Source of the DNA: Hymenobacter busanensis
GTDB lineage: Bacteria; Bacteroidota; Bacteroidia; Cytophagales; Hymenobacteraceae
Length of the DNA stretch: 64,000 nt
Direction of reading: 5' to 3'
Assembly (NCBI RefSeq): GCF_008727865.1
Contig: NZ_VTWU01000009.1
Coordinates: 1 to 64,000, forward strand
Shown: positions 37,702 to 47,521 of the stretch, one piece after another
Numbering within the stretch: position 1 is the stretch's first letter
Layout: the number at the start of each line of letters is the position of its first letter
Made by a program: the position numbers and the translations under genes
Notes under the pieces: generated by a model
Told to the model about the DNA's origin: nothing
What the model saw: the letters and a program-made list of their open reading frames with translations, nothing else
Database searches by the model: none

Positions 37702-38307
37702 CTAGTTCGACTTAAGAGCAAATTTAATTAATTCCTCCACGCTCAGATCGTTGCCGTGCTTGTGCTGGATCTGTTCCAGCGTCTTCTCGGCAGCGGTCCG
37801 CGCAAAGCCCAACGTCACTAGCGCGGCTAACGCTTCCGAGCGGTTTGTATTGTGCTGCTTGGCCAGGGGCACCACTTCCACGCCGGCTTTGGCCAGCAGT
37901 TCGTCTTTGCGCAGCCGGTCGCGCAGGTCCAGTACAATGCGCTGCGCCGTCTTCGGTCCCACGCCCTTGATGGCCTGGATGGAGCGCACGTCTTCCTGAA
38001 TAATGGCGTGGCGAATTTCGGCTACTGACATCGACGACACAATCACGATGCCCGTGCCCGGCCCGATGCCCGACACCGAAATCAGGTGCATGAACAGGGC
38101 TTTTTCGTTGGGGTCGAGGAAGCCGTAGAGCGTCTGGCCGTCTTCCTTCACGTGGTGGTAGGTGTAGAGCTTGGCCCGCTCGCCCTCGGCGGGCAGCTTG
38201 GAGTAGGTGGCCAGCGAAATCTTCACTTCGTAGCCCACGCCGTTCACGTCCAGAATGGCCTGAGCGTGGTCTTTGTAGGCGAGCTTTGCGTCGAGGTAGG
38301 CAATCAT
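37702..38307 (-). CDS. ruvA: Holliday junction branch migration protein RuvA
   Basis: A 201-residue protein of typical length that binds four-way DNA junctions as a tetramer and loads the RuvB motor. Domain I is an OB-fold (MIAYLDAKL, then LDVNGVGYEVKISL). Domain II has the two helix-hairpin-helix motifs GIGPGTGI and GVGPKTAQRIVLDLRD. Domain III is the C-terminal RuvB-binding helix bundle (SEALAALVTLGFARTAAEKT). It lies just upstream of sprA, an arrangement shared by many Bacteroidota. ruvB and ruvC are not in the window. Confidence 0.96.
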   Translation of the reverse strand: MIAYLDAKLAYKDHAQAILDVNGVGYEVKISLATYSKLPAEGERAKLYTYHHVKEDGQTLYGFLDPNEKALFMHLISVSGIGPGTGIVIVSSMSVAEIRHAIIQEDVRSIQAIKGVGPKTAQRIVLDLRDRLRKDELLAKAGVEVVPLAKQHNTNRSEALAALVTLGFARTAAEKTLEQIQHKHGNDLSVEELIKFALKSN

Positions 38308-38456
38308 AGAGGCAGCAGCGCGGGTAGGGAAGGCCCGCGGGTTCGTGAATATCGGAAGGAATTAGGAGCCGGGGCCGAAAGTGGCGCCCCGGCCGGTCGT
38401 TCCTAACACAACTTGGGGCTAAAAAGCTCGGCCGTAACCAAGCTTTTTTAAGCATT

Positions 38457-38541
38457 GTAGCGCGAACTTTCCATTCGCGTATTGCTGCACAATGGCCGTC
38501 TGGGCATCGGCAACGATACGCGCACGAAAAGTTCGCGCTAC
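38457..38541. repeat. Nested inverted repeat between maeB and ruvA
   Basis: Outer arms of 14 bp (GTAGCGCGAACTTT, 38457-38470, and its complement at 38528-38541) enclose inner arms CGCGTAT/ATACGCG (38476-38482 and 38516-38522). The right arm ends 6 bp past the maeB stop, so it could form the 3' structure of that mRNA. The layout looks like a dispersed palindromic element, but only one copy was seen here. Confidence 0.6.
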
Positions 38542-38547
38542 TACCCG

Positions 38548-40818
38548 CTACAGCGGTTGGTTATAGGTCTGCGCGTCGACCACGGCAATGGCGGTCATGT
38601 TCACAATGTCGCGCACGCTCGCGCCCAGCTGCAGGATGTGCACCGGTTTGCGCATGCCCATCAGCACCGGCCCAATAACCTCGGCCCCGCCGATTTCCTG
38701 GAGCACCTTGTAGGCGATGTTGCCCGAGGTGAGGCCGGGAAAAATAAGCGTGTTGGCGCCTTTTTCGGCCAGCTCCGAGAAGGGGTAATGCTCGCGCAGC
38801 AACTGCGGACTCAGGGCCGTGTTGGCCTGCATCTCGCCGTCCAGAATCAGGTCCGGGAAGCGGCGCTTGGCCAGCTCCGTGGCCTTGCGCATTTTGTCGG
38901 GCAGGGGGCCTACGTTCGAGCCGAAGTTGGAGTAGCTCAGCACGGCAATGCGCGGCTCGGTGTCGAAGAAGCGCACGGCGCGGGCCGTCAGGCCGATGAT
39001 GTCGACCAGCGCCTCGGCCGAGGGGTCGATGTTGACGGTGGTGTCGGAGAAGAAGAACGGGCCCTTCTTGTGGAGCACGATGTACATGCCGGCGGCCCGC
39101 TGCACGCCGTCTTCCACCCCAATGATTTGCAGGGCGGGCAAAATGCTGCGGCCGTAGTCCTTGGTGAGGCCGGTGATGTAGCAGTCGGCCTCGCCGTTGT
39201 CGAGCATCACGGCCCCGAAGTAGTTCCGCTCGCGCATCAGGCGCTTGCCTTCGTAGAGCGTGATGCCCTTGCGCTGCCGCTTGCGGAAGAGCAGCTCGGC
39301 GTACTCGTTGCGCTTGGCCTCGTCCTGCAGGATGTCGATGATTTGGCAGCCTTCCAGGTCGAGGCTGTTCTGGCGGGCAATCTGCTCGATCTTTTCGCGG
39401 TTGCCGAGCAGGATGGGCTGGGCAATGCCCTCGTCGTGCACGATCTGGGCAGCCTTGAGGATTTTGTAGTTGTCGGCCTCGGGGTACACCACGCGCTTGG
39501 GGGCCGAGCGGGCCCGCGAGGTGATGCGGTTCATCAGCTTCTGGTTTACGCCCAGGCGGCTGCGCAGCTCGTCCTCGTAGGCGTTCCAATCCTCGATGGA
39601 CTGCCGGGCCGAGCCGCTGTCCATGGCGGCCTTGGCCACGGCGGGCGAAACGGTGGTAATCAGGCGCGGGTCGAGCGGCTTGGGAATGAGGTAGAAGCGG
39701 CCGAACGAGAGGGTATTGTCGCCGTAAGCCTTGTTCACGATGTCGGGCACGGGCTCCTTGGCCAGCTCGGCCAGGGCGTGCACGGCGGCCAGCTTCATGG
39801 CCTCGTTGATTTCGGTGGCGCGCACGTCCAGGGCCCCCCGGAAGATGTAGGGGAAGCCCAGCACGTTGTTCACCTGGTTCGGGTGGTCGGAGCGCCCGGT
39901 GGCCATAATCAGGTCGTCGCGGGTGGCCATGGCCAGGTCGTAGTCGATTTCCGGGTCGGGGTTGGCCAGCGCAAACACAATGGGGTCTTTGGCCATCTTC
40001 AGCAGCAGCTCGGGGGCCAGCACGTTGGCGGCCGAGAGGCCCAGGAACACGTCGGCACCGTCCAGGGCCTCGGCCAGGGTGCTGATGGGGCGGGCGGTGG
40101 CAAACTGCATCTGCAGCTCGGCCAGGTTGGTGCGCTCGGGCGTGATCAGGCCGTCCTTGTCGAACACCACCACGTTTTCGCGCTTCAGGCCCAGCTCCAG
40201 GTACAGGCGCAGGCACGAAATGGCCGCCGCACCGGCGCCGCTGACCACCAGCTGAATTTCGTCAATCTTCTTGCCCACCACTTCCAGCGCGTTCAGCAAA
40301 GCGGCCGAGGAGATGATGGCCGTGCCGTGCTGGTCGTCGTGCATCAAGGGAATGTTCATCTTCGCCCGCAGCTCCGTCTCGATGCGGAAGCACTCGGGGG
40401 CCTTGATGTCTTCGAGGTTGATGCCGCCGAAGGTGGGCTCCAGGGCCTTCACCACCCGAATGAACTCGTCGGGGTCGGTGGCGTCAATTTCGATGTCGAA
40501 GCAGTCGATGCCGGCGAATTTCTTGAACAATACCCCCTTGCCTTCCATCACGGGCTTGGAGGCGGCCGGGCCGATGTTGCCGAGGCCGAGCACGGCGGTG
40601 CCGTTGCTGATAACGGCTACCAGGTTGCCCTTGGCGGTGTACTTATAGACGTCGTCGGGGTTTTGGGCAATGGCCTTGCAGGGCTCGGCCACGCCAGGGG
40701 AGTAGGCCAGGGCCAGGTCAATCTGGGTGCTGACGGGCTTGGTGGGCACCACTTCGATTTTGCCGGGCGGGTTCTGCGAGTGGTAGTTGAGGGCCTCTTC
40801 CTTATTGATCTTCAGCAT
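38548..40818 (-). CDS. maeB: NADP-dependent malic enzyme with phosphotransacetylase-like C-terminus
   Basis: A 756-residue two-part enzyme. The N-terminal malic enzyme part (about 1-165) has [13 protein letters not shown] with the catalytic Tyr, and the Lys-containing stretch [19 protein letters not shown]. It is followed by the metal-binding MHDDQHGTA and the NAD(P)-binding domain ([15 protein letters not shown]). Residues about 425-756 resemble phosphate acetyltransferase ([17 protein letters not shown]), a domain that in MaeB is usually regulatory, binding acetyl-CoA. It converts malate to pyruvate, CO2 and NADPH. ATG 40818 ([13 protein letters not shown]) was chosen; the frame continues upstream through a terminator. 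Both ends are flanked by hairpins, so it is probably a single-gene transcript. Confidence 0.95.
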
Positions 40819-40832
40819 GGGCGGCGGTGGGT

Positions 40833-40870
40833 GCAAACAAACAAAACGGCCGCACCGAGGCGCGGCCGTT
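40833..40870 (-). terminator. Terminator between the lipoprotein gene and maeB
   Basis: On the minus strand AACGGCCGC and GCGGCCGTT arms are followed by TTTGTTTGTTTG. It lies 58 bp past the lipoprotein stop and just before the maeB start. Confidence 0.75.
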
Positions 40871-40927
40871 AAGCAAGTTGGGGCGAAATCGGGGGAAATG
40901 AAAGCCGCCGGCCCGATTAGGCCGATC

Positions 40928-41545
40928 CTAGCGCACGGGCAGGTTGGCAAACGTGCCCTCCACCGTAATGCGGCAGCGGGCCTTGCCCTGGTCGTCAAGA
41001 GCGGGGTTGAGCGGATCGGCGGCGTCGGGCACCAGCAGGCGGTAGCTGCCGCCGATGAGGCGACGGTCGGCGTCGTAGCTGCTCACCGTGAAGGTACCTT
41101 CGAGGGCCGTGAAGTCGGTGGCGTAGGTGCGGCCCCAGGCGTCGGAGCCGGCGCGGCCGGTGAAGGCGTAGCGCACCCCTACCTGGCCGCCGGGCACGGC
41201 GGTGGAGCGCAGCGAGTAGGTGCCCACGAGGGCGGCCGGCAGCGGGCGGCGGTCGAGGGAAAACGTGAGCATGTCCTGCTGCGGGTTGTGGAGCTGCTGG
41301 AATGAAAAGCTCAGCACGTCGCCGGATTGCAGGGCGGTGCCGTAGAGCTCGGCCGGGGCGTAGCCGATGGCGCTGCTGACGCTGGTGGCGGGGTAGTAGA
41401 AGCTGCGCTGCAAGCTGAAGGCGGGGCCCGGCTGAGCGAGGTCGGTGGCGGGTTGGGGCTCGACCTCGGGGCGGTCGGTGCAGGCCGGGGTGGCGGCGAG
41501 CAGCAAGGCAGCGGTGCCGAACAGGAGGGGGAAGCGGTTTTTCAT
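40928..41545 (-). CDS. Putative lipoprotein of unknown function
   Basis: A 205-residue protein with a hydrophobic N-terminus (FPLLFGTAALLLAATPAC), giving a possible, slightly non-standard lipobox with lipidated C22. The mature part is beta-rich: LQRSFYYPATSVSSAIGYAP, then VLSFSFQQLHNPQQDMLTFS and a C-terminal RCRITVEGTFANLPVR. I do not recognise a named family. ATG 41545 was chosen because it opens the signal sequence. It has its own terminator. The upstream 160 bp separate it from the tandem repeat array. Confidence 0.75.
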   Translation of the reverse strand: MKNRFPLLFGTAALLLAATPACTDRPEVEPQPATDLAQPGPAFSLQRSFYYPATSVSSAIGYAPAELYGTALQSGDVLSFSFQQLHNPQQDMLTFSLDRRPLPAALVGTYSLRSTAVPGGQVGVRYAFTGRAGSDAWGRTYATDFTALEGTFTVSSYDADRRLIGGSYRLLVPDAADPLNPALDDQGKARCRITVEGTFANLPVR

Positions 41546-41709
41546 AGCGCAGAAAGGCAGAGCGGTTTGTGTGGGAAGGCCGCGTTTCAAGTCCTGTGCC
41601 AGTTGTAGACGGACAAAAAGGGGCAAAAACCGCAAGTGCTTCGCGATAAAGCGGTTGGTTTTGCAGGCATCACCCGATCATGTGAGGGCGTGGGGCGACG
41701 TGCCAGCAC

Positions 41710-42035
41710 CGTTGCAATCGGGCGCGGGCACGTTGCAACGCTGCTCGGGACCGTTTCAACGCTACGCGACACCGTGCTAAAACAGGTCGGAAGCGTTGCA
41801 AGGGTACTCGGGAGCGTGCTAAAACGGCTCGGAAGCGTCGCAAGCCAGCTCGGGAGCGTTTCAAAACACCTCGCGACCGTTTCAAACCGACTCGGAAGCG
41901 TTTCAAAACGGCTCGGGACCGTTTCAAACCGGCTCGGCAGCGTTTCAAAACAGCTCGGCAGCGTTTCAAAACGGGTCGGCAGCGTCGCAACCCGTCTAGG
42001 AAGCGTTTCAAACACCCGCGGGAACGTTGCAAAGC
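41710..42035. repeat. Tandem array of 15 degenerate 21-bp repeats
   Basis: Fifteen units of exactly 21 bp start at 41710 and recur every 21 bp to 42024, with a partial sixteenth beginning at 42025 (CGTTGCAAAGC). No insertion or deletion breaks the period. Within a unit, CGT at positions 1-3 and AA at positions 7-8 are the same in all 15. The rest follows a consensus that begins CGTTTCAAAAC and ends CTCGGGAG or CTCGGCAG. Translation gives seven-residue repeats in at least four frames: VSKRLGS-like and RFKTARD-like on the plus strand, and FETLPSR-like and VLKRCRA-like on the minus strand. The 590 bp between 41546 and 42136 hold no other supported gene. The array is directly repeated with no spacers, so it is not CRISPR. 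Confidence 0.92.
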
Positions 42036-42136
42036 GACTTATTTGCAGAAGGATAGGATTCTATTTATACTACCGCCGGGTTTCGGCCCCTATTCCACGT
42101 GCCTTTCTCGTTTTTCACTTCATACCCCTTTTCCTC

Positions 42137-42898
42137 ATGAATCAGGATACCCGCAACACGCTTACCCGCTTTGAGAAAGTAAAGGCCTTTTTCGACGACC
42201 ACGCCGGACTGGTGGCCTCGGTAGGGGCACTGGCCGCGGCCGTGGCTACCTACAAGGGCCTGCTGGCCGTGCTGCCCAAGTCGGCCGACGCCCCCGGCGG
42301 CACCACCGAGGGCGCTACCGAAGACAAAGGCGCCAGCCGCGCCGCGCTGGCCAAGCAGCTGGTGCCCCTGATGCACGCCCTGAAGCTGTACTACAAAAAA
42401 GCCGGCGACCTGGAGCGCGCCCGCGCTATGGACCTCACCCGCCCCAGCAGCCTGGGCACCATGGCCGTGAGCAAGTTTACCGGCCTCGTGGCCAAAGCCC
42501 TGGCGTACGCCGAAGAGCTGACGCCCGGCGCGCTGGCCGACTACAACCAGCCCGATGCCAAAATCAAGGCCTTCGGTACGGCCGCCGAGGCTTTTGGGGT
42601 AAAGAAAAACCGCCCCACCGAGCTGCGCGACCAACAGAAAACGGCCGGCGAAACCCTCGACGAGCAGGTCGACGAGGTGCGCGAGTACGTGGGCGACGAC
42701 CTGGCCTCGGCCGTGGGCCTGCTCGCCGACACCAACCCCGAGTTCGTGCGCGGCTTCAAGCAAGCCAACAAAACCGACGACCGCCCCGGCAAGCAAAATA
42801 AAGCCCTGCGCAAAGCCAATGCCGCCAAGCGGGCGGCTGCGGCCAGCGGCGAAGGCGGCAGCATAGTGAGCGGCGGGGCCGATGGGAATGGGATATAG
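42137..42898 (+). CDS. Conserved-looking helical protein of unknown function downstream of the 21-bp array
   Basis: A 253-residue protein I do not recognise. It begins MNQDTRNTLTRFEKVKAFFD, has one moderately hydrophobic segment at about 24-45 (GLVASVGALAAAVATYKGLL), then a long helical, charged body (KQLVPLMHALKLYYKKAGDL, ALADYNQPDAKIKAFGTAAE, EQVDEVREYVGDDLASAVGL). It ends in a basic Lys/Ala/Arg stretch and a Gly/Ser tail. There is no signal peptide and no catalytic motif. The reading frame is open upstream through the whole 21-bp array to a GTG at 41636. The ATG at 42137 is nevertheless preferred, since the sequence between the array and this ATG is Cys/Arg/Phe-rich and unlike the body. 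Helical content and size would fit a structural or DNA/RNA-associated protein; that is inference. Confidence 0.8.
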   Translation: MNQDTRNTLTRFEKVKAFFDDHAGLVASVGALAAAVATYKGLLAVLPKSADAPGGTTEGATEDKGASRAALAKQLVPLMHALKLYYKKAGDLERARAMDLTRPSSLGTMAVSKFTGLVAKALAYAEELTPGALADYNQPDAKIKAFGTAAEAFGVKKNRPTELRDQQKTAGETLDEQVDEVREYVGDDLASAVGLLADTNPEFVRGFKQANKTDDRPGKQNKALRKANAAKRAAAASGEGGSIVSGGADGNGI

Positions 42899-42923
42899 CA
42901 AGTAGCCCGTCCAGTAGAAACAG

Positions 42924-42966
42924 CAACGCCCCGGCCGAAAACGGTCGGGGCGTTGTGCGTTTTTGC
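42924..42966 (+). terminator. Terminator after the 253-residue protein gene
   Basis: CAACGCCCCGGCCG pairs with CGGTCGGGGCGTTG (one G-T pair), followed by TGCGTTTTTGC. It lies 25 bp past the stop and also before the end of the opposing gene at 42991. Confidence 0.8.
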
Positions 42967-42990
42967 TTGCGTGGGTTTGAGTGCAATCAT

Positions 42991-43320
42991 CTAACCACCC
43001 ACCACAACGTCTAGGAAAACGTAATGTATAAATAAGCCAAGCGCCAAAACCAATAGGCGGATAAGCAGCCATATGATTTCTTTATTCTGCCGGAAAATGC
43101 CAATAGTAGCTGTTAAGACAACAGGGAAAGATACTATGCTAAAATATAGACTTACTGCAATAAGAAAGTAGAGTATTGATAATGTAATTTCATTAGAGTT
43201 GGGTTCGTAATTGGGGTGAGGCCAATGAGAAAATTTTGCAAAGAATACGATACTTAAAGAAAAATATAGAACGGCAGAAATAAATGGGAATGTCGCAAAA
43301 ATGTTAAATGCTTTTTTCAT
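42991..43320 (-). CDS. Small membrane protein of unknown function, AT-rich gene
   Basis: A 109-residue protein with three membrane helices: about 10-28 (FPFISAVLYFSLSIVFF), 45-72 (ITLSILYFLIAVSLYFSI) and 84-106 (LLIRLLVLALGLFIHYVF). No family was recognised. The gene is much richer in A+T than its neighbours and uses codons such as ATA, AAT and TTA that are rare elsewhere in the window, a sign of recent acquisition. It follows the next small membrane protein gene after 22 bp, so the two probably form an operon. Confidence 0.7.
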   Translation of the reverse strand: MKKAFNIFATFPFISAVLYFSLSIVFFAKFSHWPHPNYEPNSNEITLSILYFLIAVSLYFSIVSFPVVLTATIGIFRQNKEIIWLLIRLLVLALGLFIHYVFLDVVVGG

Positions 43321-43342
43321 TGGTGCGGCAGTGGATTGCGTG

Positions 43343-43675
43343 TTAAGATGCTTTTACTAGAACGAATGAGGCGACGAGTATCGTAGTAAAGAAAACGATG
43401 GTGCAGATGTTGGCTGCTTTCCTGTTTTCTCTGGCTGCTTCTACGGCTTCTTTCTCTGTAATAAATATGTATTGCAACGCGAATAAAGCGGCTAATAAGA
43501 CTAAACATACAGGCAATACGGGCAATTCCCTCGTAAATTTCAATATAGATATAAGTAGTATAAATAAGAATAAAGACACTATTCCTGTGCTACGCAACCA
43601 CGCTGATGACTTTTGTGGTCCACGCTTATAATAAAGCAGTAGGCGTCCGGTAACAAGTAAAAAGAAATATTTCAT
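43343..43675 (-). CDS. Small membrane protein of unknown function, AT-rich gene
   Basis: A 110-residue protein starting MKYFFLLVTGRLLLYYKRG (ATG 43675; a longer frame upstream runs into the palindromic repeat). Three hydrophobic segments are seen: about 28-45 (GIVSLFLFILLISIL), 53-70 (LPVCLVLLAALFALQYIF) and 88-108 (CTIVFFTTILVASFVLV). Between the last two is a charged stretch (TEKEAVEAARENRKAAN). It is AT-rich like its downstream partner and directly abuts a palindromic repeat on its 5' side. Its function is unknown. Confidence 0.7.
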   Translation of the reverse strand: MKYFFLLVTGRLLLYYKRGPQKSSAWLRSTGIVSLFLFILLISILKFTRELPVLPVCLVLLAALFALQYIFITEKEAVEAARENRKAANICTIVFFTTILVASFVLVKAS

Positions 43676-43705
43676 TGAGACATTATCGAGGTTTGAGACT
43701 TTGCT

Positions 43706-43952
43706 TATGCAGAGCCTGCCGAACCGCAGGAAGGCGTAGCCCAGCATCTATACCGCGTTGTCCGCTCATTATGCAGAGGCGCAGCCGAACCGCAGGCCGA
43801 CGTAGTCAAGCATCAGCATCTCGCTTGCTGAGGTCCGAGAGTGGCTTTACTATTCGAGTAAACACGCGAGATGCTTCGCTCACGCTCTGCATGACGGTCA
43901 AGCGAATCGGGAGGCTGTGCTTAACTATACGCCTTCCTTCGGTTCGGCAGAC
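43706..43952. repeat. Nested palindromic repeat element
   Basis: Outer arms (about 43711-43739, with GCCGAACCGCAGGAAGGCGT, and 43928-43951, with ACGCCTTCCTTCGGTTCGGC) enclose an inner pair (about 43770-43822 and 43865-43893). The inner arms contain ATGCAGAGGCGCAGCCGAA and AGCATCTCGC on the left, and GCGAGATGCTTCG...CTCTGCAT on the right. The inner part is the same kind as the element at 47551-47658. It fills most of the gap between the membrane protein gene and the FG-GAP protein gene; no coding frame was seen. Confidence 0.75.
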
Positions 43953-43975
43953 TCTGCCTGACGGCCTATTAGGCG

Positions 43976-45430
43976 CTATTGCAGCAGCACCCGGCGCGTG
44001 ATGCTGCCCTGGGCGTTGTGCAGGCGCAGCAGGCATAGGCCGCGCGGCAGCCCGTCTACGGCCAACTCGCCGGAGGCCGGCACGGCCTGGGTACGCAATA
44101 CCCGGCCCAGCGCGTCGGTGAAGGTGGCCGTGAGCGGGGCAGCATTCAGCCCAGCCGGCAGCTGCACGCGCAGGCGGTTGGTGGCCGGGTTGGGGTGTAC
44201 TTGCAGGTCGGCCAGTGCGGCGGCCGGTTTGGCGGCCAGCACCTGGCCGGTGTTGCGGAACACGCGCACGGTGTGGTCGCCGGCGCAGGGCACCACCAGG
44301 TCGGGGCGGGCGTCGCCGTCCACGTCGGCCAGGCGCAGGGCTGTCGGGTCGGGGCCGGTGGGCAGCAGCTGCGGCGCGTCGAAGCAGGCGGGGTAGGCGC
44401 CGCCGTTGTGGCGGTAGACGCGCAGCTGGCCCGCGGCGGTGAGTACCACCAGTTCGGCGCGACTGTCGCCGTTGAGGTCGGTGAGCAGCAGCTGCACCGG
44501 GGCCGCGCCCACGGGCAGGCGCAGCGGGTTTTCGTACAGGTAGCCCTGCTGCGGATTCAGACGAGACAACTGCAGCACCACCTCGTTGTCGGTGTTGCCG
44601 ATGGCCACGTCGGGCAGGTCCTGGCTGTTGACGTTGCCCACGGCCACGCAGGTCGGCGTGGGGGCCAGCGCCGGAATGGGCTGGGCGCTGCCGGTACTGA
44701 ATACGCGTGCGGTTCCGGTGTTGAAAAACCAAAGCACGTTGCCGGCCTGCGGTTGCACGTAGAACGCGTCCAGCTCGCCGTCGAGGTTCAGGTCGGCCAG
44801 GGCTACGTCGGCGGGCCGCCCGCCGGAGCTGGTGCTGACGAACCCCAACGAAGTCATGGACTGCGGGTAGAGGCTCACCACGCCCATGCCCGAGGACTGG
44901 AACCCGTCGCGGATGGTGACCACGTCGATGACGTTGTCGCCGTTGAGGTGGCCGGCGCGCAGGCGCGGGCTGTTGTAGAGCCCGGTGGCGTCGATGTAGA
45001 ACGAGGCCGGGGCCAGGAAGGCGGCTTGGCCGGCGGCGTTGGCGTTGCGGAAGCTTTGTAGGTGGGCCTGATCGGCGCCGAGCACGGCCAGGTCGTCGGC
45101 GGCGTTGGCCGCGGGTTGGTTGTCGAGCGGCACGGCCACGAGCGAGGCGGGGGAAGCGCCGGTCACCACCGACGCGATGGGCGCGGGCAGGAACGAGCCG
45201 GCCGTAGCGCCGGGCGCGAACAACTCCACGCGGTTAAGGCCGCGCTCGGACACGGCCAGGTCGGGGCGGCCGTCGTGGTCGAAGTCGCCGATTGCTACGT
45301 CGCTCGGCGCGGCACCGGTGGCTAGTTGCAACGTGGTCGTGGCCTGGAAGCCGATGGGGCCGGGAGTGGGCTGCGCTAGGGCCGGAAAAGCAGCCAGCCC
45401 GAAGGATGCCAGAAGTAGATAGTGCTTCAT
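43976..45430 (-). CDS. Secreted T9SS protein with FG-GAP/VCBS repeats
   Basis: A 484-residue exported protein with signal peptide 1-19 (AFPALAQ). The body has FG-GAP/VCBS-type repeats, each with a calcium-loop-like D-x-[DN]-x-D/N-G motif: IGDFDHDGRPDLAV, AGHLNGDNVIDVVT, LADLNLDGELDAFY, LTDLNGDSRAELVV, LADVDGDARPDLVV. These build a beta-propeller as in integrin alpha chains and bacterial surface proteins. The last 80 residues (LQVHPNPATNRLRVQ to ITRRVLLQ) are a T9SS type A sorting domain. No enzyme domain was seen, so a binding or structural role is likely. ATG 45430 was chosen because it opens the signal peptide. Confidence 0.88.
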   Translation of the reverse strand: MKHYLLLASFGLAAFPALAQPTPGPIGFQATTTLQLATGAAPSDVAIGDFDHDGRPDLAVSERGLNRVELFAPGATAGSFLPAPIASVVTGASPASLVAVPLDNQPAANAADDLAVLGADQAHLQSFRNANAAGQAAFLAPASFYIDATGLYNSPRLRAGHLNGDNVIDVVTIRDGFQSSGMGVVSLYPQSMTSLGFVSTSSGGRPADVALADLNLDGELDAFYVQPQAGNVLWFFNTGTARVFSTGSAQPIPALAPTPTCVAVGNVNSQDLPDVAIGNTDNEVVLQLSRLNPQQGYLYENPLRLPVGAAPVQLLLTDLNGDSRAELVVLTAAGQLRVYRHNGGAYPACFDAPQLLPTGPDPTALRLADVDGDARPDLVVPCAGDHTVRVFRNTGQVLAAKPAAALADLQVHPNPATNRLRVQLPAGLNAAPLTATFTDALGRVLRTQAVPASGELAVDGLPRGLCLLRLHNAQGSITRRVLLQ

Positions 45431-45506
45431 AAACAGAGTAAGGAAACCCAACAAAGATATCGGAAGCACGAGCAAGTAACAGCCGCTGCGTGCCCCTGGG
45501 CCGGCG

Positions 45507-45514
45507 TAATTTTT
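45507..45514 (+). promoter_or_regulatory. Possible -7 element upstream of cysE
   Basis: TAATTTTT matches TAnnTTTG at 7 of 8 positions, 75 bp before the cysE start. No -33 TTG lies at the usual distance, so this is tentative. Confidence 0.25.
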
Positions 45515-45589
45515 ACTGCCCGGTAAGCAGAAGCGCCTCTACCTTGTTACGCAACCGGGGCGGCTGTCTTGTAGGCCGCCACTTCTGCC

Positions 45590-46420
45590 ATGCCACATAC
45601 CTTCTTCCATACCCTGGCCGCCGCGCACCAGGCCGCGCCCGCGCCGCTGCCCACGGCAGCATTTGTGGGGCTGGCCGAGCGCCTGCTCGACGTGCTCTTT
45701 CCCGAGCGCTCCGCCGACCGCCTCGCCGGTCCCGCCGCCGTAGCCGCCGCCGTGCAGCACCTCGAACACGACCTGGCCGCCCTGCTGCCCGCTGCCCCGG
45801 CCCTACCCCGGCCGCCGCAGGAGCTGGCCGCCGAGCTGGTAGCCCAACTGCCCGCCCTGCACGAGCTGCTGCTGCTCGATGCCCAAGCCATTCTGGCCGC
45901 CGACCCCGCCGCGCAGGATTTGGCCGAAGTCATCGGCACCTACCCCGGCTTCTACGCGCTGGCCCTGCACCGGCTGGCCCACGCCCTGCACCGGCGCGGG
46001 GTGCGGCTGCTGCCGCGCCTGCTCAGCGAGCATGCCCACCAGCGCACGGGCATCGACATTCACCCCGGCGCCCGCATCGGCCGCTCCTGTAGCATCGACC
46101 ACGGCACGGGCATCGTCATCGGCGAAACGGCCGTCATCGGCGACCATGTGCGGCTGTTTCAGGGCGTCACGCTGGGGGCCCTAAGCGTGGCCAAGGAGCT
46201 GGCCAGCATCAAGCGCCACCCCACCATCGAAGACCACGTGGTGGTGTACGCCGGGGCCACCATCCTGGGCGGCAGCACCGTGGTGGGCCGTCACAGCATC
46301 ATCGGCGGCAACGTGTGGCTGACCGAGAGCGTGCCCTCGCACTCCCGCGTGTATCACCGCGCCCAACTGCACGTTACCCGCACCGAAGACCCCTCCGCCG
46401 ACTTGGTCTTTTCGATTTGA
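45590..46420 (+). CDS. cysE: Serine O-acetyltransferase
   Basis: A 276-residue enzyme that acetylates L-serine with acetyl-CoA, the first step of cysteine synthesis. An alpha-helical N-terminal domain (about 1-140, with VIGTYPGFYALALHRLAHAL) is followed by a left-handed beta-helix of hexapeptide repeats. The catalytic pair is D156 in GIDIHPGARIG and H171 in DHGTGIVIGET, with the same 15-residue spacing as in the E. coli enzyme. The N-terminal domain is Ala/Leu-rich. The extra 50 residues before the core are typical of the longer Bacteroidota form. The cysteine synthase gene follows 177 bp downstream, with a large palindrome between. Confidence 0.94.
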   Translation: MPHTFFHTLAAAHQAAPAPLPTAAFVGLAERLLDVLFPERSADRLAGPAAVAAAVQHLEHDLAALLPAAPALPRPPQELAAELVAQLPALHELLLLDAQAILAADPAAQDLAEVIGTYPGFYALALHRLAHALHRRGVRLLPRLLSEHAHQRTGIDIHPGARIGRSCSIDHGTGIVIGETAVIGDHVRLFQGVTLGALSVAKELASIKRHPTIEDHVVVYAGATILGGSTVVGRHSIIGGNVWLTESVPSHSRVYHRAQLHVTRTEDPSADLVFSI

Positions 46421-46436
46421 ATGAGCTTCCCCATCT

Positions 46437-46540
46437 GTCATCCTGAGGCGCAGCCGAAGGACCTTCTCCCCGCTGAGCAAGTCATTGTGAAGACCACCTT
46501 TCTGCTGTGAGAAGGTCCTTCGGCTGCGCCTCAGGATGAC
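46437..46540. repeat. Palindromic repeat with 32-bp perfect arms between cysE and cysK
   Basis: The arm at 46437-46468, starting GTCATCCTGAGGCGCAGC, is repeated exactly in reverse complement at 46509-46540, a 32-bp perfect inverted repeat around a 40-bp loop. The core GAGGCGCAGCCGAAG recurs with one change in the element at 47551-47658. It looks like a dispersed REP- or MITE-like element. In the mRNA it would form a very stable hairpin 17 bp after the cysE stop. Confidence 0.88.
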
Positions 46541-46597
46541 GGGGAAAAGCAACTGAATTCTCATTTCATCCTTCCAGCCTTTCAACCCTTTCATCCG

Positions 46598-47521
46598 ATG
46601 AAAGCCAACTCCATTCTCGATACCATCGGCAACACGCCGCTGCTGCGCCTCAACCGCCTGTTCCAGTCCATCCGCCCCGATGTGGAAGTGTGGGTGAAGC
46701 TGGAGCGCGCCAACCCCGGCGGCAGCATCAAAGACCGCATTGCCCTGTCCATGATTGAACAGGCAGAGCGGGACGGCCTCATCACGCCCGACAGCCTGAT
46801 TGTGGAGCCCACCTCGGGCAACACCGGCGTGGGCCTGGCCTTGGTAGCGGCCGTGAAAGGCTACAAGCTCACCCTCGTGATGCCCGAAAGCATGAGCATC
46901 GAGCGCCGCCGCCTGATGGCCGCCTACGGGGCCAGCCTCGAACTCACGCCCCGCGAAAAAGGCATGAAGGGCGCCATCGAAAAGGCCCACGAAATCGTGA
47001 ACAGCACCCCCGGCGCCTGGATGCCCATGCAGTTTTCGAACCCGGCCAACATTCTGGTGCACGCCGACACCACGGCCCAGGAAATCCTGCGCGACGCCCC
47101 CGAAGGCTTCGACTTCCACATCACCGGCGTGGGCACCGGCGGCCACATCACGGCCGTTACCGAAGTGCTCAAGCCGCTGTTTCCGCGCATGAAAACCTTT
47201 GCCGTCGAGCCCGAACTCTCGCCCGTTATCAGCGGCGGGTCACCCGGTCCGCACCCCATCCAGGGCATCGGCGCCGGCTTCATCCCCGACAACCTCCACA
47301 CCCGCATCCTCGACGGTACCATCCAGATTTCGCAGCAGGAAGCCTTCGACATGGCCCGCCGCGCCGCCCGCGAAGAAGGCCTGTTCGTGGGCGTTTCGTC
47401 CGGCGCATCGCTCGCCGCCGTAGCCAAAAAGCTGCCCGAAGTGCCCCAGAACGGCCGCGTGCTCACCTTCTGCTACGACACCGGCGAGCGGTACCTATCG
47501 GTCGACGGGCTGTTCGTGTAA
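46598..47521 (+). CDS. cysK: Cysteine synthase (O-acetylserine sulfhydrylase)
   Basis: A 307-residue PLP enzyme that makes L-cysteine from O-acetylserine and sulfide. The PLP lysine is K45 in [10 protein letters not shown]. The substrate-binding loop is [12 protein letters not shown] (about 73-84), the phosphate loop [11 protein letters not shown] (about 175-185), and the C-terminal signature [10 protein letters not shown] is present. Length is typical of the CysK group. Serine acetyltransferase is encoded just upstream, so the two steps are encoded together. The C-terminus ends VDGLFV. A palindrome follows at 47551. Confidence 0.95.

Follow-up and report, generated by a model that had tools for sequence, protein, structure and literature searches.

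Rows of direct repeats standing beside the gene of the protein that reads them are known from parC of ParMRC, tubC of TubZRC and iterons, and in some of these the repeats are spaced by nearly two turns of the helix. In ToxIN, a type III toxin–antitoxin system, a single gene is directly preceded by short tandem repeats. In REP/RAYT systems the RAYT is a tyrosine transposase and the REP sequences are palindromic. Each of these systems is partly similar to the locus described here, which lies in the window, that is, the whole stretch of 64,000 nucleotides of Hymenobacter busanensis DNA that was analysed. Plasmid centromere arrays and iterons resemble it in that rows of repeats stand next to the gene of a reader, which is putative here, and in a specificity that would be private to each paralogue. 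The present locus differs from the plasmid centromere arrays in being chromosomal, in that the neighbouring window genes checked include no motor gene, and in a unit that is free and changes fast; its protein differs from the plasmid centromere adaptors in having no match to a ribbon-helix-helix or winged-helix family. The type III systems share with the locus the short tandem repeats directly 5' of a single gene, whereas degenerate units, the lack of an RNA structure signal, an all-helical protein model and the signature of a DNA face set it apart from ToxIN. As in REP/RAYT systems, one gene is accompanied by repeats and gene-less copies exist elsewhere, but neither a tyrosine transposase nor palindromic repeats were seen.

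The specificity of ParR binding has been described (PMC9426499). BrickBuilt, a MITE minisatellite of Porphyromonas gingivalis, has 23-nt units that follow a single consensus, ends in small inverted repeats and is, like the present arrays, a tandem array with dispersed copies in a Bacteroidota genome; it differs in that the part of the source considered here describes no linked gene family (PMC4596501). The TAACTGA heptamer arrays of some Bacteroidetes are intergenic direct repeats whose presence or absence at a given site varies among relatives, as it does here; they differ in having a 7-nt unit of one single sequence, and the part of the source considered here describes no linked protein family (PMC4679880).

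The window array (Table 1) consists of 15 successive 21-bp units at 41710-42024, the last full unit being 42004-42024, and of a decaying 16th unit at 42025-42045 that retains approximately its first half. An earlier note, made from the letters alone, had described 15 exact 21-bp units without an insertion or deletion, and the unit alignment confirms this with zero indels. The note was also right that CGT and AA are invariant: C1, G2, T3, A7 and A8 are fixed in 15/15 units, and so is G17, which had been overlooked. Identity between neighbouring units averages 0.69, compared with approximately 0.27 expected from the G+C content of 62.6%, and Tandem Repeats Finder scores the array core at 202 with period 21 and at 218 with period 42. 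The consensus pooled from the window array and its two relatives in the home genome is CGTTtCAAA.C.gCTCGGgAg. The detector places the array end 97 bp before the start codon of the 253-aa gene, where the note had estimated about 100 bp. A CRISPR array was rejected, because the units are contiguous and degenerate and near-identical repeats with unique spacers are absent. The window contains no tRNA, nor does any Rfam model match it at gathering score.

Table 1. Features at and beside the array-bearing locus of the window.
Feature	Coordinates	Strand	Basis or remark
Lipoprotein-like gene (by eye; without Pfam match), outside the locus	40928..41545	-	Points away from the array
Array of 21-bp units, 15 full and one decaying, indel-free	41710..42039	+	Repeat detection, unit alignment
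Spacer between array and gene	42040..42136	+	Promoter-like pair inside
Gene for 253-aa predicted all-helical protein of a divergent family	42137..42898	+	ORF, profile searches, model
Terminator-like site, 15-pair stem then T run, directly 3' of the gene	42923..42966	+	Sequence scan

The promoter-like pair, TTTGCA-18-TATACT at 42042-42071, abuts the array end and is the one such pair in 41540-43000, against 0.1 in shuffles. The pattern typical of Bacteroidota promoters is not enriched in the interval between array and gene across 42 homologue loci (1 versus 0.4 expected). A Pfam scan of eight neighbouring window genes (37702-47521) identified RuvA, malic enzyme/phosphate acetyltransferase, FG-GAP and PALP, together with a hexapeptide match just under the cut-off, a ceramidase match below the cut-off and two genes without a Pfam match; no ParM or TubZ motor gene is present among these eight. 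Two dispersed repeats were also seen in the window. The one at 46434-46540, approximately 105 bp long, matches on both strands as an imperfect palindrome and is REP- or MITE-like, and the other lies at 43707-43967; both have many copies in the home genome and in congeners among the matches listed.

The window protein has no Pfam match up to an E value of 1, no PHROGs match, no PADLOC match up to 0.1 and one noise-level NCBIfam row far below the cut-off (E 0.068), in agreement with the earlier note, to whose author no family matching the 253-residue protein was known. Other family members that were tried give weak rows below the cut-off or none, the best defence row having an E value of 0.0078 (P0007), and identity with a known defence gene was rejected. 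The window protein and a Stygiobacter member were modelled with AlphaFold from 13 sequences each; both models are all-helical, with mean pLDDT values of 81.5 and 86.2, respectively, and a pTM of 0.53 each. Neither the window-protein model compared with the PDB (best E 0.37, with low TM-scores) nor the Stygiobacter-member model compared with viral models (best E 0.37) has a match at E <= 0.001. Searched with a profile, PDB sequences yield short helical matches only, the best being to a designed helical repeat protein (37 positions, E 0.0028) and to GldL (46 positions, E 0.0054). Some members of 302-318 aa have extra C-terminal parts (L145:1501-2439, L146, L148 and L119; L107 and L117; L112), and most of these have a 21-bp array of their own; the addition in L112 appears fibronectin-III-like by eye, and L107, L112 and L145 have no Pfam match at the cut-off.

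When 58 genomes were searched with the window protein, five further loci were identified, with identities of 24-30%, and a 21-bp array lies just upstream of the gene in all five. A detector of diverged tandem periods was applied to 400 kb each of the home genome and genome G145 and found 21-bp arrays with new units adjoining genes of approximately 230 residues that resemble the window protein. Profile A1 was made from eight family members, two of which (P0004 and P0005) had been found via their arrays; the count of five in five is independent of these array-found members. This profile matched at least 13 of 247 phylum-wide genomes, part of the candidates having been scored, and 8 of 38 relatives, the home genome being included in both counts. 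A named collection gave 15 family loci under the titles Stygiobacter, Ignavibacteria, Ignavibacteriales, Melioribacteraceae, Mariniphaga, Bacteroidales, Carboxylicivirga linearis and Bacteroidetes MAGs, and the family is present in Bacteroidota and Ignavibacteria.

For a wider count, 59 loci were examined, of which 57 have at least 590 bp upstream, with L141 omitted as the other half of the L137 gene; the 57 include the window and six other home-genome loci. The best period in the 600 bp upstream is 21, 42 or 63 in 44 of the 57 loci and 20 in two, and 11 have none; six of these 11 are fragments or truncated genes (L108, L110, L124, L125, L149 and L161) that were kept in the count. Downstream, none of 55 loci has a 21-, 42- or 63-bp array within 600 bp, one having a period of 14, and only 5 of 1320 consecutive 600-bp background tiles from two genomes contain such arrays. 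The detector matches of period 21 or 42 in the tiled stretches are three arrays beside family genes and L095. This L095 array (1159-1376, G145) has a 42-bp period with inverted blocks, unlike the other arrays. The well-kept units of L160:2098-2370, from a Mariniphaga MAG, alternate in two forms and so make a 42-bp dimer. The AT-rich upstream regions L162:2024-2290 and L158:2190-2420 have a period of about 20 instead of 21; they may represent low complexity or arrays in decay.

The linkage is also found in the reverse direction. An intergenic 21-bp array, C4:295438-295683, stands before a 238-residue gene (start 295780) that profile A2 scores at merely 2 bits. Homologues of this gene fetched by protein alone amount to nine loci, with a 21-bp array upstream in eight and downstream in none, the query alone having been selected for its array; the ninth, without an array, is a partial match with an internal stop. 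The array thus pointed to a diverged branch that behaves like the main family. The linkage of the array to the gene family is real and general. The earlier note had suggested that the array and the helical protein may be a linked element and had proposed inspection of the 600 bp upstream of homologues: the counts of 5/5 by direct search, 44/57 in the wider set and 8/9 in the second branch bear this out, and the element is a recurring locus. It had also named homologues without an array and arrays at unrelated loci as evidence to the contrary, and both occur in part, since 13 of the 57 loci have no 21-, 42- or 63-bp array at the threshold used and the window unit stands at two loci without a family gene.

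The 21-bp period is constant over loci of 33-68% G+C while the unit sequences differ, and by-eye comparison revealed no motif common to the units of all loci. At E <= 0.001 the window unit is found in the home genome only among 58 related genomes including it. A looser unit pattern matches in 6 of 204 genomes of the bacterial family, compared with one chance match in one genome for its reversed control, and several of the matches are 21-bp arrays with different units, which first pointed to the period rather than the sequence as the common feature. The conservation of the 21 columns was obtained for each array and subjected to Fourier transformation in 26 groups of 48 arrays, the groups being selected by the analyst; the set includes the gene-less L002 and L003 as well as L031 and L034, which have no family-profile gene nearby, and leaves out L032. 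The 10.5-bp harmonic accounts for 0.269 of the variance over the 26 groups and is the largest harmonic in 15 of them. Column permutation gives 0.100 +/- 0.016 and autocorrelated noise 0.155 +/- 0.022, and 0 of 4000 simulations of each kind reach 0.269. The 3-bp harmonic is depleted (0.065 versus 0.100 expected). An earlier version of the spectrum used 41 arrays with at least 6 units and a score of at least 24 and left out L112, L124, L137 and L141. The 10.5-bp harmonic of eight further arrays averages 0.25, a value that carries no significance figure.

The window array itself has a 10.5-bp harmonic of 0.06, its largest being the 7-bp harmonic at 0.32, and the pooled window group of three arrays reaches 0.10. 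Therefore, the helix-face claim stands at the level of the family. A two-arm hairpin within the unit could have mimicked the 10.5-bp signal, but complementarity is at chance (mean z 0.14 +/- 0.18 over the 26 groups). By eye, unit spacings of 20 and 21 bp are mixed in L150 (Stygiobacter) and L179 (congener G001, period 41), so that the helical phase is kept and the frame is lost. Since the conserved positions recur every 10.5 bp, which is one turn of B-DNA, and not every 3 bp, the constraint on the period is likely to be the face of the helix and not the reading frame. The natural reading of the spectrum is contact with one face of B-DNA, with two grooves per unit. One 21-bp array, L032:1396-1588 (G121), appears by eye to be coding, with a heptad linker in the protein, and its unit resembles the window unit.

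Our preferred reading, with a probability of roughly 0.43, is that the arrays are rows of DNA-recognition sites that serve the adjacent gene and are most likely read by its product. The locus would comprise an upstream row of direct recognition sites that recur at intervals of two B-DNA turns, together with a gene that encodes a helical protein of approximately 230-250 aa. The binder, most likely the product of the adjacent gene, would sit head to tail on successive units, always on the same helix face, and the bound protein would make two groove contacts per unit. The ordered assembly would form beside the promoter of the gene and may thereby bring about autoregulation. Where the same unit forms an array without the gene, that array may label a further genomic site. 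Coexisting systems in one cell would stay apart if every paralogue recognised a unit of its own.

It is also possible, although rather doubtful, that the array acts at the DNA level through another reader or through its repetitive phased structure, as in insulation or silencing, and that the gene merely needs the array. The protein itself, which is not strikingly basic, leaves room for such a role. The median pI over 41 homologues is 8.9, several of them being acidic (e.g. L104, L107, L115, L117 and L121), and when the last 25 residues are removed the median net charge is 0, with a range from -15 to +8. Neither Pfam nor comparison of its all-helical model with the PDB assigns the window protein to a ribbon-helix-helix or winged-helix DNA-binding family. 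Variation is lowest in residues 1-10 and approximately 191-220 and is spread throughout the rest of the family protein, where no hypervariable recognition patch was found. Because no DNA-binding fold or family is recognised and the protein body is near-neutral, we infer DNA binding from the linkage and not from the protein sequence.

The turnover of the unit bears on both of these readings. The arrays evolve faster than the adjacent gene: array identity is 76% where the proteins are 95% identical, and at 82% protein identity it ranges from 0.70 down to 0.38 and can be near background (L128/L130, 0.38; L142/L144, 0.48). This turnover would fit the fast-changing contacts of a recogniser and would equally fit a partly sequence-independent role. 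The latter also agrees with a gene-less site that holds arrays in three congeners with differing units. However, the same columns are constrained between related arrays, which is unexpected under a sequence-agnostic role. In the three of 17 array pairs similar enough to test, within-array conservation and between-array difference are correlated with r values of -0.84, -0.76 and -0.43, and the conserved columns differ less between arrays than the other columns in L120/L133 (13% versus 35.5%), L144/L147 (19% versus 36%) and L104/L115 (11% versus 18%), the last two pairs being paralogues in one genome. Furthermore, the unit follows the paralogue among close orthologues, which have units in common, and many more distant pairs have no shared units.

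A selfish or mobile element, REP/RAYT- or MITE-like, whose product spreads the array and leaves gene-less arrays as its copies, is improbable. The gene-less arrays speak for it. The home genome (4.89 Mb, 11 contigs) contains two further arrays of the window unit, C7:463087-463356 (77%) and C9:86637-86864 (76%), and the profile finds no family gene within 1.5 kb on either side of these two arrays, which are L002 and L003. Three other gene-linked home arrays, used as one query, detected gene-less arrays at C5:47.5 kb, C5:70.3 kb and C9:113.5 kb, again with no family gene nearby by profile; units of three of the four gene-linked home arrays queried recur in gene-less arrays. By eye, the first of these three lies 5' of a gene resembling polyprenyl synthetases and the second 5' of a methyltransferase-like gene; the third is flanked by convergent genes, a position in which an operator makes little sense. 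Period 21 accounts for 13 of the 28 tandem signals in 1.66 Mb of the home genome, and every other period for at most two. Three of these 13 signals (C4:318489, C4:110539 and C5:75816) lie inside long ORFs and were set aside as coding.

Patchy presence, in at least 13 of 247 genomes, internal stops in some family copies and array-less sites in relatives are also what a mobile element would leave. At the site of the gene-less array L002, no array was detected in congeners G002, G006 and G007, and G004 and G005 have a short gap without an array. The window site has no array within the 1.5-kb flanks of seven congener loci beside the malic enzyme gene; three of the seven keep DNA similarity to the lipoprotein-like neighbour, and an array was seen in none of these three. 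L002 has one imperfect 15-nt inverted pair (80%) outside its array. The window and L003, however, have only unit-internal pairs of 10-13 nt and no terminal inverted repeats at the array ends, and the family has no transposase-like match. Searches of plasmids, phages and viral contigs, with one query each, gave no match either. Moreover, in one branch of the family the neighbouring gene is, by eye, conserved across two genera, and the L002 site carries arrays in three species.

The history of the L002 site is informative for the preferred reading, that is, recognition sites that serve the adjacent gene. In G003 the place is taken by a 21-bp array and in G001 by a 41-bp one, with units that differ from those of L002, suggesting that an array can persist while its unit is replaced. 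Neither is clearly similar to the available gene-linked arrays of its own genome, and this speaks against simple addressing in trans. Both arrays, L179:1163-1383 (G001) and L186:1121-1368 (G003), lie upstream of the same hydrolase-like gene as L002.

Less probable than a mobile element is an arrangement like that of type III toxin–antitoxin systems, in which a repeat RNA made from the array would neutralise the protein encoded downstream. The layout is the same, with short direct repeats just upstream of one gene, but Pfam, NCBIfam and PADLOC reveal no ToxN/AbiQ-like match, the predicted folding of the array RNA is on a par with that of shuffled sequences (z -0.24), and the units show no hairpin signal. 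The interval between array and gene contains a single weak terminator-like match of five pairs, located at the array end, and the 10.5-bp pattern of a DNA face is not a property of RNA.

Slightly less probable still is a coding role, in which the units would be translated as heptads, either in an extension of the N terminus or in a repeat peptide of their own. The 21-bp period is divisible by three, the window array can be read in an open frame into the gene, and open frames are in slight excess (at least one in 22 of 26 groups versus 18.1 expected, with a mean of 1.85 versus 1.42). However, the frame of the gene is open across the whole array in only 10 of 34 loci, a count that leaves out low-scoring, broken and fragment loci, and none of the six frames is open in 4 of the 26 groups, each represented by one array. 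The depleted 3-bp harmonic and the mixed 20- and 21-bp spacing in L150 and L179 also argue against coding. The suggestion of the earlier note that selection acts on the reading frame is thus not supported, given 10 open gene frames in 34 and a high 10.5-bp harmonic beside a low 3-bp one.

Slippage gives rise to tandem repeats and gene-less arrays exist, but neutral minisatellites lying near these genes by chance are strongly disfavoured and the least probable alternative of all, because the linkage is upstream only across the phylum, the period is fixed despite diverged units, and columns are constrained.

Full-text searches of open-access PubMed Central, judged by titles and the starts of abstracts, returned no description of such loci. 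We tentatively raise the possibility, doubtful as it is, that these loci are an undescribed class of chromosomal DNA-address systems of Bacteroidota and Ignavibacteria, in which each helical protein would line up head to tail along rows of a private two-turn unit at its own gene and elsewhere in the genome, and in which the code would rewire fast and several systems would remain insulated from one another in one cell. The sequence of the cis array is nearly free while its two-turn spacing is fixed, and such conservation of geometry over sequence is unusual. The family would provide a testable case of rapidly rewiring specificity among paralogues, and intergenic repeats that resemble drifting minisatellites can be parts of functional loci.
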